Of a stretch of 64,000 nt of DNA, positions 48,104-57,338 are shown piece by piece. Positions within the stretch are counted from its first letter, which is position 1, and each line of letters opens with the position of its first letter. Source of the stretch: Anaeromyxobacter diazotrophicus (GTDB lineage: Bacteria > Myxococcota > Myxococcia > Myxococcales > Anaeromyxobacteraceae); contig NZ_BJTG01000002.1 in assembly GCF_013340205.1 (NCBI RefSeq), positions 372,001 to 436,000 on the forward strand. The letters run 5' to 3'. The position numbers were made by a program, and so were the translations under genes. Below the pieces are notes generated by a model. It ran no database searches. It was not told where the DNA came from and saw nothing but the letters and a program-made list of their open reading frames with translations.

Positions 48104-49030
48104 ATGGAACAGCTGCGCTTCGCCCCGGCCGCCGCCGGGGATCTCGGGGAGATCCGGCGCGTCCTGGCGGCGCTCGGGCTGCCGTCCGACGACGTCGGCG
48201 CCCCTCACCAGAGCTTCACCACGGCCCGCGCGGGCGAGGCGCTCGTCGGGTTCGTCGGGCTCGAGCTGTACGGGACGAACGCGCTCCTCCGCTCCCTGGC
48301 CGTCGTCCCCTCGCGGCACGGGGAGGGGCTCGGCGGCGAGCTCGCGCGCCGGGTGCTGGCGGAGGCCAGCGCCAAGGGGGTGCGCGAGGTCTACCTCCTC
48401 ACCACCACCGCCGAGGGGTTCTTCGAGCGCGCCGGGTTCGCGCGCGTGGCGCGGGAGCACGTGCCCGGGCCGGTGCGGGAGAGCCCGGAGTTCAAGACGC
48501 TCTGCCCGGCGAGCGCCGTCTGCATGATGAAGCGCCTCGCGGCGGACGGGGCGGCGGCGAGCGAGGGCGCGGCGCCCGCGCCGCGGCCGCCGCGGGTGCG
48601 CGTCCGCGAGTTCGCCCCGGACGACGTGGATCGCGCGCTGGCGCTGTGGCGCTCCTGCGAGGGGATCGTGCTGCGGGACGCGGACGACCGGCGCGAGCCC
48701 ATCACCCGCTACCTCGACCGGAACCCCGGGCTGAGCTTCGTCTGCGAGGTGGGGGCGGAGCTGGCCGGCGCCGTCCTCTGCGGCACCGACGGCCGCCGCG
48801 GGTTCCTCCACCACCTGGCGGTCGCGCCCGCCCACCGCCACCGCGGCCTCGGGCGCGCGCTCGCGCTGGCGGCCGCGGAGGCGCTCGCGCGCGAGGGTGT
48901 CGACAAGTGTCACCTCATGGTGCTGCCGTCGAACGCGGCCGCGCGCGCGTTCTGGCGCCGCCTCGGGTGGGAGGAGCGCACCGACGTGCTGCTCATGTCG
49001 CGGCTCGCCTCCCGGTCGCACGCGGCGTGA
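48104..49030 (+). CDS. Tandem GNAT acetyltransferase (ArsN2-like plus GNAT fusion)
   Basis: 308 aa in two acetyltransferase domains. The first (about 1-145) has the ArsN2 pattern: LGLPSDDV, GFVGLELYGTNALLRSLAV and GFFERAGFARV. Related ArsN proteins acetylate organoarsenicals such as arsinothricin. The second (about 160-305) is a standard GNAT fold with the CoA loop HRHRGLGRALA and AFWRRLGW. A Pro/Ala linker joins them. TATGCT lies 6 nt before the ATG. No ars genes are nearby, so an arsenic role is only suggested by the fold. Confidence 0.8.
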   Translation: MEQLRFAPAAAGDLGEIRRVLAALGLPSDDVGAPHQSFTTARAGEALVGFVGLELYGTNALLRSLAVVPSRHGEGLGGELARRVLAEASAKGVREVYLLTTTAEGFFERAGFARVAREHVPGPVRESPEFKTLCPASAVCMMKRLAADGAAASEGAAPAPRPPRVRVREFAPDDVDRALALWRSCEGIVLRDADDRREPITRYLDRNPGLSFVCEVGAELAGAVLCGTDGRRGFLHHLAVAPAHRHRGLGRALALAAAEALAREGVDKCHLMVLPSNAAARAFWRRLGWEERTDVLLMSRLASRSHAA

Positions 49031-49064: not shown

Positions 49065-49424
49065 GTGATCGAGCTGGCGCTCGCGCGCGGGCGCGTGGCC
49101 CTGCGCCTGACCGCCGTGCGGCTGGGCGCGGACCTCGCGGTGACGCTCTCGGGCGGGGACCGCCCCCACGTCGGCGCGGTGGCGGTGAGCCAGCCGCGGG
49201 CGGACGCCGGCGCGACCACCTCCGTCCTGGCCATCCTCGGCCACCGGGAGGACGAGCTGGCCCGGCAGATCGCGGCGCGGCTCGCGGCGGCGACGCGCGG
49301 CGTGGTGACCGTGGCGTGCGGGATCCACCTGGACCGGATCACCCCGGCCGAGATCGAGGAGGTCCGCCGGGTGAGCGAGGAGCTGGCGCTGGAGCTGCTC
49401 GCGCGGCTCGCGACGGCCGGCTGA
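49065..49424 (+). CDS. LpdD-like prenylated-flavin chaperone domain protein
   Basis: A 119-aa stand-alone protein of the LpdD type. Characteristic segments are PHVGAVAVSQPR, SVLAILGHREDELAR and CGIHLDRITPAEIEEV. LpdD is associated with UbiD-like prenyl-FMN decarboxylases (gallate/protocatechuate systems). No ubiD or ubiX gene lies in this window, so its partner is elsewhere or different. GTG 49065 has GGGAGGG with 5-nt spacing. Confidence 0.75.
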   Translation: MIELALARGRVALRLTAVRLGADLAVTLSGGDRPHVGAVAVSQPRADAGATTSVLAILGHREDELARQIAARLAAATRGVVTVACGIHLDRITPAEIEEVRRVSEELALELLARLATAG

Positions 49425-49427
49425 CCT

Positions 49428-49688
49428 CTACCGCGCGTCCTCGTCCCACCAGCTCCGCAGCCAGGCCCCGAGGCGGCGGAAGCCGAGCCGCTCGACCGTG
49501 TAGGGGAACCAGGCGAGCAAGACGCCGCACAGGCCCACCACGCCGAGCGCGGTCAGGGCGCCGAGCGCGAGCGCGGCCGTGCGGTCGGGGCTGGCGCGGT
49601 AGCGCACCGCCACCGCGGCGAACCACGCCAGGCCGGGGCCGAAGCCGATGAGCGCCGCCAGGAGGGCGCGGGTGCGGGGCGCGATCAC
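49428..49688 (-). CDS. Two-helix membrane protein
   Basis: 86 aa with two hydrophobic helices (about 8-26 and 37-58) and a Trp/Arg-rich C-terminus (RLGAWLRSWWDEDAR). The GTG start overlaps the stop of a 29-codon microprotein gene (GTGA), which argues for this start over the longer frame to 49793. I do not recognise the family. Confidence 0.6.
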   Translation of the reverse strand: MIAPRTRALLAALIGFGPGLAWFAAVAVRYRASPDRTAALALGALTALGVVGLCGVLLAWFPYTVERLGFRRLGAWLRSWWDEDAR

Positions 49689-49774
49689 CGGCGCCTGCGC
49701 TTGCGGGTGAGGACCCGCACCGCCACCGCGAGGACCATCCCCGCGATCCAGAGCCAGAAGACGAGTCGCGTCAT
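49685..49774 (-). CDS. 29-aa single-span membrane microprotein
   Basis: An ATG-initiated frame of 29 codons reads MTRLVFWLWIAGMVLAVAV followed by a basic tail RVLTRKRRRR. That is one transmembrane helix with a positively charged cytoplasmic end. Its TGA overlaps the GTG of the 86-aa membrane protein as GTGA, the same coupling seen for confirmed gene pairs here. It is too short for standard gene callers. Function unknown; it may be a partner or regulator of the 86-aa protein. Confidence 0.5.
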   Translation of the reverse strand: MTRLVFWLWIAGMVLAVAVRVLTRKRRRR

Positions 49775-50006
49775 CGCCCCCGGCGTCTACCACGGACGCG
49801 GACCGGCGGGCAGGTTTCCGTGGGCGGCGCGAGCGCGCCCCGCGCGAGGTTGCTCGGCCCCATGCCGTGAAGGGGCGGGGGGCGCCGCCCGGCTGCCGTC
49901 GGCGCCGGGGAGCACCATCTTCTGACGCCAGCGGGCGGTTCGCCCGGTCGGTCGGCGGGGGGCTTCCCCTGCGTTGACGGATAGTCGAGATCCGCCAGGG
50001 GGGAGC

Positions 50007-50384
50007 ATGAGGATCGAGCGGACCCAGCGGTGGCTGCTGCTGTCACTCCTGGTGCTGGTGGCCGCTCCGGCCCGGGCCAGCACGTGGACCGTGAAGGACA
50101 CGGTCATCGAGGCGGCCGGCGCCACCCTCCATCTCCTCGACATGTCGCAGACGCTGCGGATCAGCGCCGACCCGAGATACGTGGAGAACAACCCGATCCT
50201 CGGCCGGCGCCCGGCCGCCGCCACCGTGACCGGGTACTTCGTGGGGACGCTGCTCCTGCACGTGACCGTGGCGCGCCTGCTGCCGCAGCCGTACCGGACG
50301 ATGTGGCAGCTCGCCTGGATCGGCGTCGAGGGCGGCTGCGTCGCGAACAACGTCCGGGCGGGGATCCAGTTCCGGCTGCCCTAG
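50007..50384 (+). CDS. Small membrane protein, DUF5658-like
   Basis: 125 aa with a signal-anchor (about 8-28) and two further hydrophobic stretches. The segment LLDMSQTLRI followed by ENNPILGRRP resembles the D-x-x-Q-T ... N-P pattern of DUF5658-type small membrane proteins. GGGGGGAG precedes ATG 50007. Function unknown. Confidence 0.6.
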   Translation: MRIERTQRWLLLSLLVLVAAPARASTWTVKDTVIEAAGATLHLLDMSQTLRISADPRYVENNPILGRRPAAATVTGYFVGTLLLHVTVARLLPQPYRTMWQLAWIGVEGGCVANNVRAGIQFRLP

Positions 50385-50443: not shown

Positions 50444-50516
50444 TGACCCCACGGGGATTCGAACCCCGGTTGCAGCCTTGAAAGGGCCGAGTCCTGGGCC
50501 TCTAGACGATGGGGTC
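50444..50516 (-). tRNA. tRNA-Glu (anticodon TTC)
   Basis: Cloverleaf on the minus strand: acceptor GACCCCA/TGGGGTC, D-arm GTCTAGAGGCCCAGGAC, anticodon loop CTTTCAA with stem CGGCC/GGCTG, and T-loop TTCGAAT with GGGG/CCCC. Discriminator A; CCA is not encoded. Closely resembles E. coli tRNA-Glu. Confidence 0.95.
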
Positions 50517-51511: not shown

Positions 51512-51584
51512 TGACCCCACAGGGATTCGAACCCCGGTTTCAACCCTGAGAGAGCTGCGTCCTGGGCCTCTAGACGATGGGGTC
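51512..51584 (-). tRNA. tRNA-Glu (anticodon CTC)
   Basis: Same acceptor, D-arm and T-loop as the TTC copy 1 kb away, with anticodon loop CTCTCAG. The anticodon stem CAGCT/GGTTG has two G-U type pairs (T-G and G-T), weaker than in its neighbour. Discriminator A; no encoded CCA. Confidence 0.88.
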
Positions 51585-51647: not shown

Positions 51648-54600
51648 CTAGGCGGCGCGCCCGGCGGCGGTCGAGGCGGGTGGCCACACCAGGCGGCGCG
51701 CGGCGGGGCGCTCGCGCAGGTAGGCGAAGGAGCCGAGCGCGACGCAGGCCGCCGCCGGCGCCAGCGCCGCCGCCCAGGCGAGGCGCGGCAGCGCGACGTA
51801 GAGCGCCGCCACCGCGACCGCGGCCGCCAGCGCCCAGCCGGTGCCGAGCACGCGGGTGAAGGAGCGCAGGCGCGCCAGCCGCCGCGCGTCCAGCGCCTCG
51901 AGCCGCTCCCAGAGGACCTGCTCCTGGCGCCAGTAGGTGTAGACGACCGGGATGATCTCGAGGGTGAGGAAGGCGCTGGTGAGGAGGCCTCCCACCATGG
52001 GCGCGGCGATGCGCTTCATGACGTCGGAGCCCGAGCCGGTGGCCCAGAGCAGCGGGATGAGCCCCGCCAGCATGGTGGCGACGGTCATGAGCTTCGGGCG
52101 GACCCGCTGGACCGTGCCCTCCATGTGCGCCCAGATGATGTCGGACAGGTCGCGGATCTTGCCCGCCCTGCGCCGCCGCTCGTAGGCGTGGTCGATGTAG
52201 ACGATCATCACGATGCCGGTCTGGGCGGCCAGCCCGGTGAGCGCGATGATCCCCACCCACACCGCCGTCGAGAGCCGGTAGTCGAGCAGCCAGAGGAGCC
52301 ACACGCTCCCCACCAGCGCGAACGGGATGGAGAGGAGGACGATCAGCACCTCGACGAAGTTCCGGAAGTGCAGGAAGAGCAGCAGCACGATGATGAGGAT
52401 CGTGGCCGGGAGCACGAGCCGCATCCGCTCCGCCATCTTCTCGAGCTCCTCGTACTGCCCGGTCCAGCGCAGGAAGGTCCCCTGCGGCAGCGTGAGCCGG
52501 CCGTGCTCGAGCGCCTCGTGCACGACGTGCTTCGCCTCGGCCACGTACCCGCCCACGTCGCGCGCGGGGTCGAGATCGACGTAGACGTAGCCGACGAGGA
52601 GCCCGCCCTCGTCGCGCACCATGGGCGGGCCGCCCACGATCCGCACGTCCGCCACCTGCCCCAGCGGCACGAAGGCCTGCGCCCGCCGCCCGGCGCCGCC
52701 GGCGAGGCCGGCCAGGGTGCCCTGGTCGGCCTGGTTCACGGCCTGGTCCCACTCCAGCGCCGGCGCGTCGGAGAGGGTGCCCGGGATGGTCCGGGGCAGG
52801 CGCTTCACCGGCCCGGCGGGCGCGTCGCCGCCCCCCATCCCGCCGCCCATCTGCGCGAGCAGCAGCGCCGGCACCCGCGGCGGCGCGAGCGCGCCCATCT
52901 TGCCGGAGGGCGCCGCCCCGCCGATGGGCACGAGCACGCTCCGGAGCCGCTCCAGGTCGCCGCGGAGGTGCTGCGGGTAGCGCACGTTGATGGAGAACCG
53001 GTTCCGCCCCTCCACCGTGACGCCGACGGGCGCGCCGCCGATGGCCGCCTCGACGGTGCGCTGCACGTCGCCCACGGTGAGCCCGTAGCGGGCGAGCGCG
53101 TCGCGGTCGGGCACGACGTCGAGGTACAGCCCGCCCTCGTTCCGCTCGTAGAAGGCGCTGCGCGTGCCGCGGAGCGACGCGAGCAGCCCCTCGAGCGCGA
53201 CGCCCACCCGCTCGATCTCGGCCAGGTCGGTGCCCATGATCTTGACGCCGACCGGGGTGCGCACGCCGGTCGAGAGCATGTCGATCCGCGCCTTGATGGG
53301 CATGGTGTAGGCGTTGGTCCAGCCGGGGAGCTGCATGGCCCGGTTCATCTCGGCCGTCAGCTCCTCCCAGGTGATGCGGGTGCGATCGGGCCACAGCGGC
53401 CGCAGGGCGGGGGCGAGCCACGAGGGCGCCCAGCCGGACCACCAGCGGCGGCGCTCGAGCTTGCGCCAGGCCGCGGCGGGCTTGAGGCGCACCGTGGTCT
53501 CGACCATGGTGAGCGGGGCGGGGTCGGTGGCCGTCTCGGCGCGGCCCGCCTTGCCGAACACGCTCGCCACCTCCGGGAAGCCGCGGAACACGCGGTCCTG
53601 GAGCTGCAGCTGCCGCTTGGCCTCCTCGATGGAGAGGTTGGGGAAGGTGGTCGGCATGTAGAGCACGTCGCCCTCCTCGAGGGGCGGCATGAACTCGTGG
53701 CCGAGCTGCAGCGCGAGCGGCACCGCCGAGAGCACCGCCAGGAGCCCGATGGCGAGGGTCGACTTGGGGTTCCGCAGCGCCACGAACACGAACGGCCGGT
53801 AGACGCGGGCGATGGCGCGCGAGAGCGGGTGGCGCGCCTCGCTGCGGATCTCGCCGCGGAGGAGCAGGTCGCGCAGCGCCGGGGCGAAGGTGATGGAGAG
53901 CACCGCCGCCGAGAGCATGACGAACGTCTTGGTGTAGGCGAGCGGGCGGAAGAGGCGCCCGGCCTGGCCGGTGAGCGTGAACACCGGCAGGAACGCCACC
54001 GCGATGACGAGCAGCGAGAAGAAGATGGCCGGCGTCACCTCGCGCGCCGCCTCGGCCAGCAGCGCGCGGCGGTCGGCGCCGGGGGGCGCGTGCTCCAGCT
54101 TCTTGTGCGAGGCCTCGATCATCACGATCTCGGCGTCGACGGTGGCGCCGATCGCGATGGCGATGCCGCCCAGGCTCATGAGGGTGGCCGGGATGTCGAG
54201 CAGCACCATGGGGATGAAGGCGAGCGCGACCGCGACCGGCAGCGAGATGATGGGCAGGAGCGCCGAGCGCACGTGCAGGAGGAAGGCGAGGATGACGAAG
54301 GCGACCACCAGCGCCTCCTCCACCAGCGCGCGCTGCAGGGTGCCGATGGCGCGGTGGATGAGGTCGGTCCGGTCGTAGGCGACCTCGACCTTCACCCCGG
54401 GCGGCAGGGTGTGCTCCAGCTCGCGCAGCTTCTGCTTCACGCGGCCCACCACGTCGAGCACGTTCTCGCCGTAGCGCACGACCACGATCCCGCCCACCGC
54501 CTCGCCGTCGCCGTTCCACTCGAGCAGCCCGCGCCGGAGCTCTGGCCCGAAGCGCACCGTGCCGAGGTCGCGCACCAGCACCGGCACGCCGGCGGGCCCG

Positions 54601-55349
54601 CGCGCGCGCACCGCCACCCGCTCCAGCGCGCCCAGGTCCTGGATGTAGCCGCGGCCGCGCACGTAGTACTCGCGGCCGGCCATCTCGATGGAGCGGCCGC
54701 CCACGTCGCTGTTGGAGTCGCGGATCTTCGCCGCCACCTCCTCCAGCGTGACGCCGTAGGCGCGCAGCTTGTTCGGGTCCACCGTCACCTGGTACTGGCG
54801 CTGGAACCCGCCCACGCTCGCCACCTCGGCCACCCCCGGCACCTGGCCGACCGCGTAGCGCAGCGTGAAGTCCTGGAACGTCCTCAGCTCGTCGAGCGAG
54901 GTGCGCCCGTCGGCGACCAGCGCGTACTGGAAGCCCCAGCCGACGCCGGAGGCGTCCGGGCCGAGCACCGGGTTCGCGCCCTCGGGCAGCCGGGCGCGGA
55001 GGGAGCTCATGTGCTCGAGCACGCGGCTGCGGGCCCAGTAGAGGTCGGTGCCCTCCTCGAACACCACGTACACGAACGACATCCCGAACATCGAGTAGCC
55101 GCGGACGCCGGCCACGCGGGGCGCCCCCACCAGCGAGCTGACGACCGGGTAGGTGACCTGGTCCTCGACCAGCGTGGGCGAGCGCCCCATCCACTCGGTG
55201 AAGACGATGACCTGCGGATCCCCGAGGTCGGGGATGGCGTCGAGCTTGGCGTGCCGGATGGCGTAGATCGACGCGGCGGTCGCCACCGCCACCGCCAGCA
55301 GCACGACCAGGCGGTTGCGGGCGCAGAGCTCGATGACGCGGGCGACCAT
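51648..55349 (-). CDS. CusA/CzcA-type heavy-metal RND efflux pump
   Basis: A 1233-aa inner-membrane pump of the metal-efflux RND family, larger than E. coli CusA (1047 aa). The first TM segment is at about 12-32. The porter domain has the EWMGRSPTLVEDQVTYPV signature. TM4 carries GATVDAEIVMIE with the proton-relay Asp; the second half has LRWTGQYEELEKMAERM and GIIALTGLAAQTGIVM. The excess length is an insertion of about 80 residues in the second periplasmic half containing MGGGMGGGDAPAG, and a C-terminal hydrophobic extension of about 100 residues. The Met/Gly insert and TM pattern favour Cu(I)/Ag(I), but Zn/Co cannot be excluded. ATG 55349; the adaptor gene lies 14 nt upstream. Confidence 0.92.
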   Translation of the reverse strand: MVARVIELCARNRLVVLLAVAVATAASIYAIRHAKLDAIPDLGDPQVIVFTEWMGRSPTLVEDQVTYPVVSSLVGAPRVAGVRGYSMFGMSFVYVVFEEGTDLYWARSRVLEHMSSLRARLPEGANPVLGPDASGVGWGFQYALVADGRTSLDELRTFQDFTLRYAVGQVPGVAEVASVGGFQRQYQVTVDPNKLRAYGVTLEEVAAKIRDSNSDVGGRSIEMAGREYYVRGRGYIQDLGALERVAVRARGPAGVPVLVRDLGTVRFGPELRRGLLEWNGDGEAVGGIVVVRYGENVLDVVGRVKQKLRELEHTLPPGVKVEVAYDRTDLIHRAIGTLQRALVEEALVVAFVILAFLLHVRSALLPIISLPVAVALAFIPMVLLDIPATLMSLGGIAIAIGATVDAEIVMIEASHKKLEHAPPGADRRALLAEAAREVTPAIFFSLLVIAVAFLPVFTLTGQAGRLFRPLAYTKTFVMLSAAVLSITFAPALRDLLLRGEIRSEARHPLSRAIARVYRPFVFVALRNPKSTLAIGLLAVLSAVPLALQLGHEFMPPLEEGDVLYMPTTFPNLSIEEAKRQLQLQDRVFRGFPEVASVFGKAGRAETATDPAPLTMVETTVRLKPAAAWRKLERRRWWSGWAPSWLAPALRPLWPDRTRITWEELTAEMNRAMQLPGWTNAYTMPIKARIDMLSTGVRTPVGVKIMGTDLAEIERVGVALEGLLASLRGTRSAFYERNEGGLYLDVVPDRDALARYGLTVGDVQRTVEAAIGGAPVGVTVEGRNRFSINVRYPQHLRGDLERLRSVLVPIGGAAPSGKMGALAPPRVPALLLAQMGGGMGGGDAPAGPVKRLPRTIPGTLSDAPALEWDQAVNQADQGTLAGLAGGAGRRAQAFVPLGQVADVRIVGGPPMVRDEGGLLVGYVYVDLDPARDVGGYVAEAKHVVHEALEHGRLTLPQGTFLRWTGQYEELEKMAERMRLVLPATILIIVLLLFLHFRNFVEVLIVLLSIPFALVGSVWLLWLLDYRLSTAVWVGIIALTGLAAQTGIVMIVYIDHAYERRRRAGKIRDLSDIIWAHMEGTVQRVRPKLMTVATMLAGLIPLLWATGSGSDVMKRIAAPMVGGLLTSAFLTLEIIPVVYTYWRQEQVLWERLEALDARRLARLRSFTRVLGTGWALAAAVAVAALYVALPRLAWAAALAPAAACVALGSFAYLRERPAARRLVWPPASTAAGRAA

Positions 55350-55363
55350 GGCGCTCCCGGGTG

Positions 55364-56992
55364 CTAGTTCCGCGCGTCCGCCCGCGCGTGCTCGCGGCGG
55401 TCGTCGCCCTCGCGCTCGCGGCGCTCGTCCTCGGCGCCCACCGGGCGGAAGCCCTCCACCGCCGCCCGCAGCCGGCTCTCCGAGTCCACCAGGAAGTTGG
55501 CGGTGGTGACGACCATCTCCCCCTCGGCGAGCCCCTCCAGCACCTGCACCCGGCCGTCGCCGCCCGCGCCGAGGCGCACGCGCCGGGGCTCGAAGCGACC
55601 GGCGGGCCGGGCGACGAACACGTACTGCTGGTCGCCGGTGTCGACCACCGCCTCGCCGGGCACCGTGAGCGCGTCGCCGGCCGGGAGGTCGAGCAGGACG
55701 TCGCCGTACATGCCCGGCTTGAGCCGGAGCCCCGGGTTCTTCAGCTCGATCCGCGCCTGGACGGTGCGGCTCTCCGGGTTCACGGCGGGATAGACGAACT
55801 GCACCCGCCCGCCGAACGTCTCGCCCTGGCGGGCGGCCACCGTGAAGCGGGCGCGCTGCCCGACCCGGACCCGGTCGACGTCGCGCTCGTAGACGTCCGC
55901 GACCACCCACACGGTCGAGAGGTCGACGATCTGGAAGAGCTCGGTGCCGGGCTGCACGTAGAGGCCGGGGAGGGCGGCCTTGCGCGCCACGTAGCCCGCC
56001 ACCGGCGAGCGCACCGGGACGGTGGCCAGCGGCTGCCCGGTCCGGGCGATCTCGGCCACGTCCTGGGGCGCCACCCCGAGCAGCTCCAGGCGGCGGCGCG
56101 CGTCGTACTCCACGCCACCCGCGGCCCCGCCCGCGGTCGCGAGCCCCTGCTTGTCGGCCCACTTCACGGAGTTCAGGTAGACCTGCTGGGCGGTCACCAG
56201 CTCCTGGCTGTAGGCGGTGGCGAGGATCTGCCCCTTCTCGACGCGCGCGCCGCTCTGCGCCACCAGGAGCTTCTCGATCCAGCCGCTGAAGCGCGTCGTC
56301 ACCAGCGCCAGCCGCTGCTCGTCCGCGGCGACGAACCCCACCGTCCGGAGCTGCGGCGCGAGCCGCTCGCGCAGCACCGGGCCGGTGCGCATCCCGATGA
56401 GCTGCGTGCGCGCCGCGTCGAGCTCCACCGGCACGAGCCCCGCCACCCCGCCCTGGTTCGCGGCCGGCGCCCGCGGCACGAGCTTCATCCCCCCGCACTT
56501 CTCGCAGCGCGCCTCCGGATCGTCGCTCGCCACCTCCGGGTGCATCGGGCACCAGTACTTCCCCTGCGCCGCTGCCCCAGTCGCGGTCGCGGTCGCGGTC
56601 GAGGTCGAGGCCGAGGTCGAGGTCGAGGTCGAGGTCGAGGTCGAGGTCGAGGTCGAGGTCGAGGTCGAGGTCGAGGTCGAGGTCGAGGTCGGCTTCCCCT
56701 CGACCGGCACGAGGTCCATCCCGCAGATCGGGCAAGCTCCCGGCCGGTCCTGCAGCACGGCCGGGTGCATCGGGCAGTGGTACTGCCCCGCCGCTCGCGC
56801 CGAGGCGCGGCCGCCAGGCGCCAGGCCCGCGAAGTGAGCCCACGCGCCGAGGGCCGCCACCGCCATGAGGGCGACCAGCGCCCACCGCGCGATGGCCATC
56901 GCGCGGACGCCGGGCGGGGGGGCTTCGGAGCCCTCGGGCATCGGCTCGGTCGCCGGGCCCGCCGGGGGCGGCGTCAGCTCGCGGTCGCTCAT
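55364..56992 (-). CDS. RND efflux adaptor (CusB-like) with two metal-binding modules and a (Thr-Ser)n linker
   Basis: 542-aa periplasmic membrane-fusion protein linking the pump to an outer-membrane channel. A signal-anchor (about 33-53) is followed by two heavy-metal-binding modules: YHCPMHPAVLQDRPGACPICGMDL (about 70-95, a CPMHP / CPICGM pair) and YWCPMHPEV ... CEKCGGM. They flank a Thr-Ser dipeptide tract of about 38 residues encoded by the hexamer repeat. The usual barrel-sandwich, alpha-hairpin and beta-barrel domains follow (ending near 510), then a charged tail. ATG 56992 has GAGGAG upstream. There is no cusC or metal regulator in the window. Confidence 0.9.
   Translation of the reverse strand: MSDRELTPPPAGPATEPMPEGSEAPPPGVRAMAIARWALVALMAVAALGAWAHFAGLAPGGRASARAAGQYHCPMHPAVLQDRPGACPICGMDLVPVEGKPTSTSTSTSTSTSTSTSTSTSTSTSTSASTSTATATATGAAAQGKYWCPMHPEVASDDPEARCEKCGGMKLVPRAPAANQGGVAGLVPVELDAARTQLIGMRTGPVLRERLAPQLRTVGFVAADEQRLALVTTRFSGWIEKLLVAQSGARVEKGQILATAYSQELVTAQQVYLNSVKWADKQGLATAGGAAGGVEYDARRRLELLGVAPQDVAEIARTGQPLATVPVRSPVAGYVARKAALPGLYVQPGTELFQIVDLSTVWVVADVYERDVDRVRVGQRARFTVAARQGETFGGRVQFVYPAVNPESRTVQARIELKNPGLRLKPGMYGDVLLDLPAGDALTVPGEAVVDTGDQQYVFVARPAGRFEPRRVRLGAGGDGRVQVLEGLAEGEMVVTTANFLVDSESRLRAAVEGFRPVGAEDERREREGDDRREHARADARN
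56581..56693. repeat. In-frame hexamer tract in the efflux adaptor
   Basis: About nineteen hexamers. On the plus strand the tract is GTCGCG units and then mostly GTCGAG; on the coding (minus) strand it reads ACC TCG, that is Thr-Ser, grading into Thr-Ala at the module-2 end. One unit carries GCCGAG. It is the most regular copy of the repeat in the window. Confidence 0.93.
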
Positions 56993-57338
56993 GGAGGACT
57001 CCTCGGAATTCCTCCATCTTACTTTGGTTTCATGCCCCGGCACGCAGGGGGCTCAAGGGGCTTGCCGTCCGGTGGCCGAATGGACACGCGAGCCCTGGTT
57101 CGCCGGCCGGCCCACCGAGCGCCTGCCCCTCCCGGGGGTGCGCCCTCGGGCGCGCATCCTCCTCTTGTCGATGACCTCGGCTACGTCCACGGCACGCTGG
57201 CGGCGGCGCTGGTGGCGGGCCTCGCCGCGTACCGCGCGCGGACCGCCTGACGGACGCGGCGGCCGCGCCCGAGCCCCGACCCGCGCGCCAGGCGAGGCCC
57301 CGCGCGCTGGCGAGCCGGTTGCATCCGCGCTCCGCGCC
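56993..57338. other. Intergenic interval upstream of the efflux pair
   Basis: 346 bases between divergent genes. Near the adaptor start it is unusually AT-rich (57000-57034). An inverted repeat CCCC-N8-GGGG lies at 57035-57050. TAAGAT (57021-57016, minus strand) could be a -10, but no -35 at 17 nt is convincing and no MerR-type CTTGAC dyad was found. A 56-codon frame on the plus strand (57080-57250) is not supported. Confidence 0.5.

Follow-up and report, generated by a model that had tools for sequence, protein, structure and literature searches.

A putative 29-codon membrane-protein frame overlapping the start of a small membrane-protein gene in Anaeromyxobacter diazotrophicus

Introduction

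Single-span small membrane proteins of the CydX, KdpF and AcrZ type are about 30–50 residues long. Leader-peptide cistrons are short open reading frames that directly precede a gene and could control its translation. KdpF is reported to share a transcript with the genes of its partners. Pairs of genes coupled by termination and reinitiation, with a 4-nt overlap of stop and start, have been described (Huber et al. 2019, 2023). PMC10666635 gives −1 as by far the commonest gene distance in prokaryotes, and states from reporter work that reinitiation coupling requires an overlap or a very short spacing. For two E. coli pairs, the same paper reports that 15 nt at the end of the upstream gene were enough for coupling. 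A further source on the subject is PMC6728339.

The window analyzed here is a stretch of 64,000 nucleotides from Anaeromyxobacter diazotrophicus, in which a 29-codon frame, hereafter the micro-ORF, overlaps a gene for an 86-residue membrane protein. Like CydX, KdpF and AcrZ, its product is short with one hydrophobic helix, and its shape is that of the descriptive class of small membrane proteins (fewer than 50 residues, one helix). Unlike them, it has no adjacent oxidase, potassium pump or efflux gene and no relative in the phylum. Its neighbors are not cydAB or kdpABC, being a double GNAT gene, a PAC_bac gene, a 125-aa gene and an alpha/beta hydrolase gene, and it has no match in Pfam, that is, none to the family profile of a CydX- or KdpF-type subunit, nor in PHROGs. 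The 4-nt overlap is that of the pairs of Huber et al.; the upstream member differs from theirs in having just 29 codons and in being replaced by unrelated genes in relatives. In position the micro-ORF resembles a leader-peptide cistron, being a short frame directly before a gene. It differs from one in its gene-like codon usage and in lacking a run of control residues, except for Arg; a terminator-like hairpin was also looked for and none was found.

Organization of the overlapping pair

The micro-ORF occupies 49774..49685 of the window's minus strand, starts with ATG and ends with TGA, encoding MTRLVFWLWIAGMVLAVAVRVLTRKRRRR. This product consists of a single hydrophobic stretch, predicted to form one transmembrane helix (17-residue mean hydropathy of 2.15), followed by the basic tail RKRRRR. 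By the positive-inside rule, its topology is probably N-out/C-in. The end of the frame overlaps the GTG-started 86-aa gene (49428..49688, minus strand) by four nucleotides, forming a GTGA junction that is read directly in the sequence (49688..49685) and that has the geometry of overlapping pairs, in which stop and start share 4 or 1 nt. The 29-codon frame, transmembrane helix, RKRRRR tail and GTGA overlap described in the initial annotation are thus all present.

Both starts, the ATG of the micro-ORF and the GTG of the 86-aa gene, are preceded by Shine-Dalgarno matches of three bases at most. A GGGGG stretch at the ATG sits very near the start codon. The promoter of the pair presumably lies in the intergenic region that extends to the divergent 125-aa gene (49775..50006), where a scan limited to the sigma-70 consensus detected no sigma-70-like site.

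The frequency of such junctions was surveyed in 464 kb of the genome, with neighbor pairs taken from a crude gene caller written for this work. GTGA was the commonest −4 junction, accounting for 31 of the 47 −4 overlaps among 236 same-strand neighbor pairs. Of the 226 genes whose free upstream DNA measured at least 70 nt, 32 had a coupled short ORF; the frequency in Markov simulations was 15.9%. As coupled short ORFs are no more frequent than in simulated upstream DNA, the overlap alone is uninformative. The earlier description of GTGA as the usual operon junction of this genome therefore holds, and its use as evidence by itself is weak.

Coding signal of the micro-ORF

Codon usage was scored with a model trained on 96,231 codons from long frames in 464 kb (the window and a further 400 kb of its contig). 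The log-odds of the micro-ORF amount to 14.6 bits, or 0.50 per codon, close to the 0.60 per codon of the 86-aa gene. Its GC content at codon positions 1/2/3 is 0.66/0.52/0.97; at the intergenic GC content of 0.727, the probability of finding G or C at 24 or more of the 25 synonymous third positions is 0.0036. In 60-nt windows, the score of the micro-ORF frame is +12.5 from the ATG and −6.2 when the window starts 30 nt upstream. The coding signal is absent upstream, begins at the ATG, and shifts to the second frame after GTGA. The possibility that this region encodes an N-terminal extension of the 86-aa protein, starting at GTG 49793, was rejected. The corresponding frame is in the wrong codon phase, with −0.90 bits per codon and a GC content by position of 0.97/0.63/0.57, and the homologues of the 86-aa protein start within about 5–7 residues of GTG 49688.

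The micro-ORF ranks 9th by codon score among 479 small intergenic ORFs (20–60 residues, one per stop), and no other ORF in contact with a downstream start scores as high. A score of at least 14.5 is reached by 9 of the 479; hydropathy peaks at 1.6 or more in 10, and 3 combine the two. Three of the eight ORFs that outrank it have a Pfam match above the cut-off (DUF5670, ribosomal L32 and a piece of a tRNA synthetase), indicating that real coding sequence is common at the top of the list. Among 45,200 simulated upstream regions, none contained a coupled ORF scoring at least 14.5, and about one contained a coupled ORF with a hydropathy of at least 2.1. In real intergenic DNA, 1,377 of 50,816 open 87-nt windows (2.7%) match the codon score of the micro-ORF, although these windows overlap one another and some are probably unrecognized genes; the same score is reached by 78% of 1,790 windows taken in frame from called genes. 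Since 2.7% of open intergenic windows score as high, the codon signal is strong and not a proof. From the third-position GC content, the simulations and the rank, the micro-ORF looks coding, as had been proposed. We judge it likely that the frame is coding or was so recently, and the codon evidence suggests that it is probably translated.

Distribution of the micro-ORF and of the 86-aa protein

At E ≤ 0.01, the 29-aa protein was detected in one of 195 phylum genomes, its own, the others being more distant relatives. A search at E ≤ 10 of 24 genomes of the family, the others again more distant ones, returned its own genome and other matches with E ≥ 0.26. The sole NCBIfam match was NPXTG-anchor, with 15.8 bits for a cut-off of 23.5, and the sole match among solved structures was a stretch of CcmF at chance level (E of 0.27).

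The 86-aa protein has matches at E ≤ 0.001 in five of the 24 family genomes, its own included, with 38–52% identity in the four others, confirming that the downstream gene is conserved. Two of these relatives are metagenome-assembled genomes labelled uncultured Anaeromyxobacter sp. The count is five of 147 for the class and, at E ≤ 0.01, 10 of 195 for the phylum, the five outside the family being weak matches of the profile (E of 0.003–0.009) that lie in long frames, one of them with a stop. The 86-aa protein belongs to a small protein family that appears confined to this bacterial family. No relative was found among solved structures at E ≤ 1. A phage or plasmid origin of the gene was also considered and rejected, as there were no matches in 72,556 plasmid records, 50,697 phage records or viral contigs; phage families gave no match below an E of 0.38 and defence families gave none.

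A structure model of the 86-aa protein, built from a three-sequence alignment of the protein with two relatives, has helices at residues 4–29, 36–67 and 71–85, with a medium confidence (pLDDT of 72.8, pTM of 0.38). We interpret the first two as membrane helices and the third as a short C-terminal one that closes with WWDEDAR. In the alignment, the C-terminus is conserved as a WLRxWWDEDAR-like motif.

All four other genomes that carry the 86-aa gene lack the micro-ORF. The gene is directly preceded by dnaB in G016 and G014, and by a gene for an MFS transporter (PF07690) in G017; DnaB domains were confirmed in G014, and the call in G016 is based on a similar C-terminal sequence. The distances from stop to start are 0, +8 and +4 nt in G016, G014 and G017, respectively. 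These values depend on our choice of starts, the crude caller having placed that of G016 at a GTG a few codons later. The tails of the upstream genes contain GGAGG, GAGG and AAGGAG in G016, G014 and G017. In G010, the match is shorter and more diverged. It lies close to the end of a contig, lacks the conserved C-terminus, and has no called gene just upstream. The expected conservation of the coupling partner was therefore not borne out: where the start can be read, in three relatives, a DnaB or MFS transporter gene stands upstream and no microprotein. The neighborhood of the 86-aa gene is variable, and the micro-ORF is known only from this lineage.

Discussion

Since dnaB or an MFS transporter gene fills its place in relatives, the upstream partner of the 86-aa gene looks interchangeable, and the micro-ORF is for this reason best read as a translated, lineage-specific upstream cistron that mainly delivers ribosomes to the 86-aa gene. 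We give this reading a probability of roughly 0.55. The first cistron would be translated into a 29-aa single-span membrane peptide, and ribosomes stopping at its TGA would reinitiate on the overlapping GTG of the second, which encodes the 86-aa membrane protein and has no strong Shine-Dalgarno site. In relatives, the end of dnaB or of the MFS transporter gene would do the same job. It may be speculated that an AGG located five bases ahead of the GTG acts as a minimal ribosome-binding element, AGG being rare among Arg codons (2.7%). The need for an overlap or very short gap and the sufficiency of the last 15 nt in the E. coli pairs, as reported in PMC10666635, fit an interchangeable partner. 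Counted against ribosome delivery are the lack of a homologue of the 29-aa protein, the 2.7% of intergenic windows with an equal score, and the three-base Shine-Dalgarno matches. Delivery of ribosomes is nevertheless the most likely role of the micro-ORF, and the 86-aa gene is probably translationally coupled to it. That the peptide also accompanies the 86-aa protein in the membrane, as a second role, is conjecture.

Instead, the product of the micro-ORF could be a functional small membrane protein and the obligate partner of the 86-aa one, the two forming a heteromeric complex of two subunits in a fixed ratio. According to PMC10666635, subunits of heteromeric complexes are overrepresented among overlapping pairs, and both products look like membrane proteins, the helix of the micro-ORF being near-ideal. 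However, the micro-ORF is absent from the other four genomes that carry the 86-aa gene, three of which have unrelated genes upstream; it is hence not obligate, and this explanation appears unlikely. A further rival is that the frame lies open by chance in the 5′ leader of the 86-aa gene and is not made or has no function. The chance-level frequency of coupled short ORFs, the absence of conservation, the weak ribosome-binding site, and the long chance frames typical of GC-rich DNA are all in its favor. It is rendered doubtful by the combination of codon score and helix, which did not occur in the 45,200 simulations, and by the onset of the signal and its switch of frame, which coincide with the start and the overlap.

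The MFS transporter gene just upstream of the 86-aa gene in G017 raises the idea that the micro-ORF is the relict last helix of a transporter that once occupied this place. G017 also has, near its 86-aa gene, a single 144-aa ArsN2-like GNAT (54% to the GNAT of the window) and a GreA-like gene; as an ArsN2-like GNAT and a GreA-like gene are nearby in the window too, the two places are partly alike. There is moreover a short local likeness, VFW..IAG..LAV, to the C-terminus of the G017 transporter. Its local score of 31 is below that of several unrelated genes of the window's genome, the best of which reaches 38. When compared with a profile built from 11 of the 13 transporter C-termini found (the near-duplicates L085 and L094 were omitted and the ends trimmed manually), the micro-ORF product scores 3.8 bits. 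As much or more was reached by 49 of 373 unrelated membrane segments and by 34 of 1,000 shuffles. An intact relative is found elsewhere in the window's genome (C3:425805), and the coding phase of a transporter is absent upstream of the micro-ORF. A relict is hence highly improbable, and this reading was rejected. It is also conceivable, if improbable, that the 86-aa gene is a roaming end-cistron, supplied with ribosomes by any gene that ends directly ahead of it (dnaB or an MFS transporter gene), and that in this lineage a newborn 29-codon membrane ORF took over as coupling leader, which would make it a new gene that arose in this role.

The micro-ORF product is probably a real orphan small membrane protein of an unremarkable kind, encoded ahead of a family-restricted one, and plausibly an ordinary example of the small proteins that gene finders tend to miss. 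The finding is modest on its own. If the micro-ORF is translated, the catalogue would gain one orphan small membrane protein and one small membrane protein restricted to the family, and the occurrence of one downstream gene with three different upstream partners would offer a simple natural comparison as to whether coupling or partnership preserves overlapping genes.

A role in the regulation of transporters or of envelope stress, as put forward in the initial annotation, is unsupported, because no neighboring gene ties the micro-ORF to either. On the plus strand, the GNAT gene (48104–49030) encodes two acetyltransferase halves, the N-terminal one matching ArsN2 (NF040501, 180 bits for a cut-off of 125). 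It is followed by the convergent PAC_bac gene (49065–49424), which encodes a protein resembling bacterial proteasome assembly chaperones (PF21758, E of 1e-34) and was found in one of the 24 family genomes, its own. The divergent 125-aa gene (50007–50384, plus strand) has no assigned function. Further on lie two tRNA-Glu genes on the minus strand, with TTC and CTC anticodons (50444–50516 and 51512–51584), between which the alpha/beta hydrolase gene sits.

Two minor observations were made. A long frame on the minus strand (51648–57017) covers an efflux-transporter-like protein and has, in its upstream part, a run of Leu-Asp dipeptides (DLDLDL...) that corresponds to a short-period repeat in the DNA. 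A second 29-aa ORF with one hydrophobic helix, MSDVLTFVLLAAAWIALQTFILPRLGVPT, is present on the minus strand elsewhere in the same genome (L029:2360–2449, that is C2:202360–202449); it has no Pfam match, and its codon use is coding-like.
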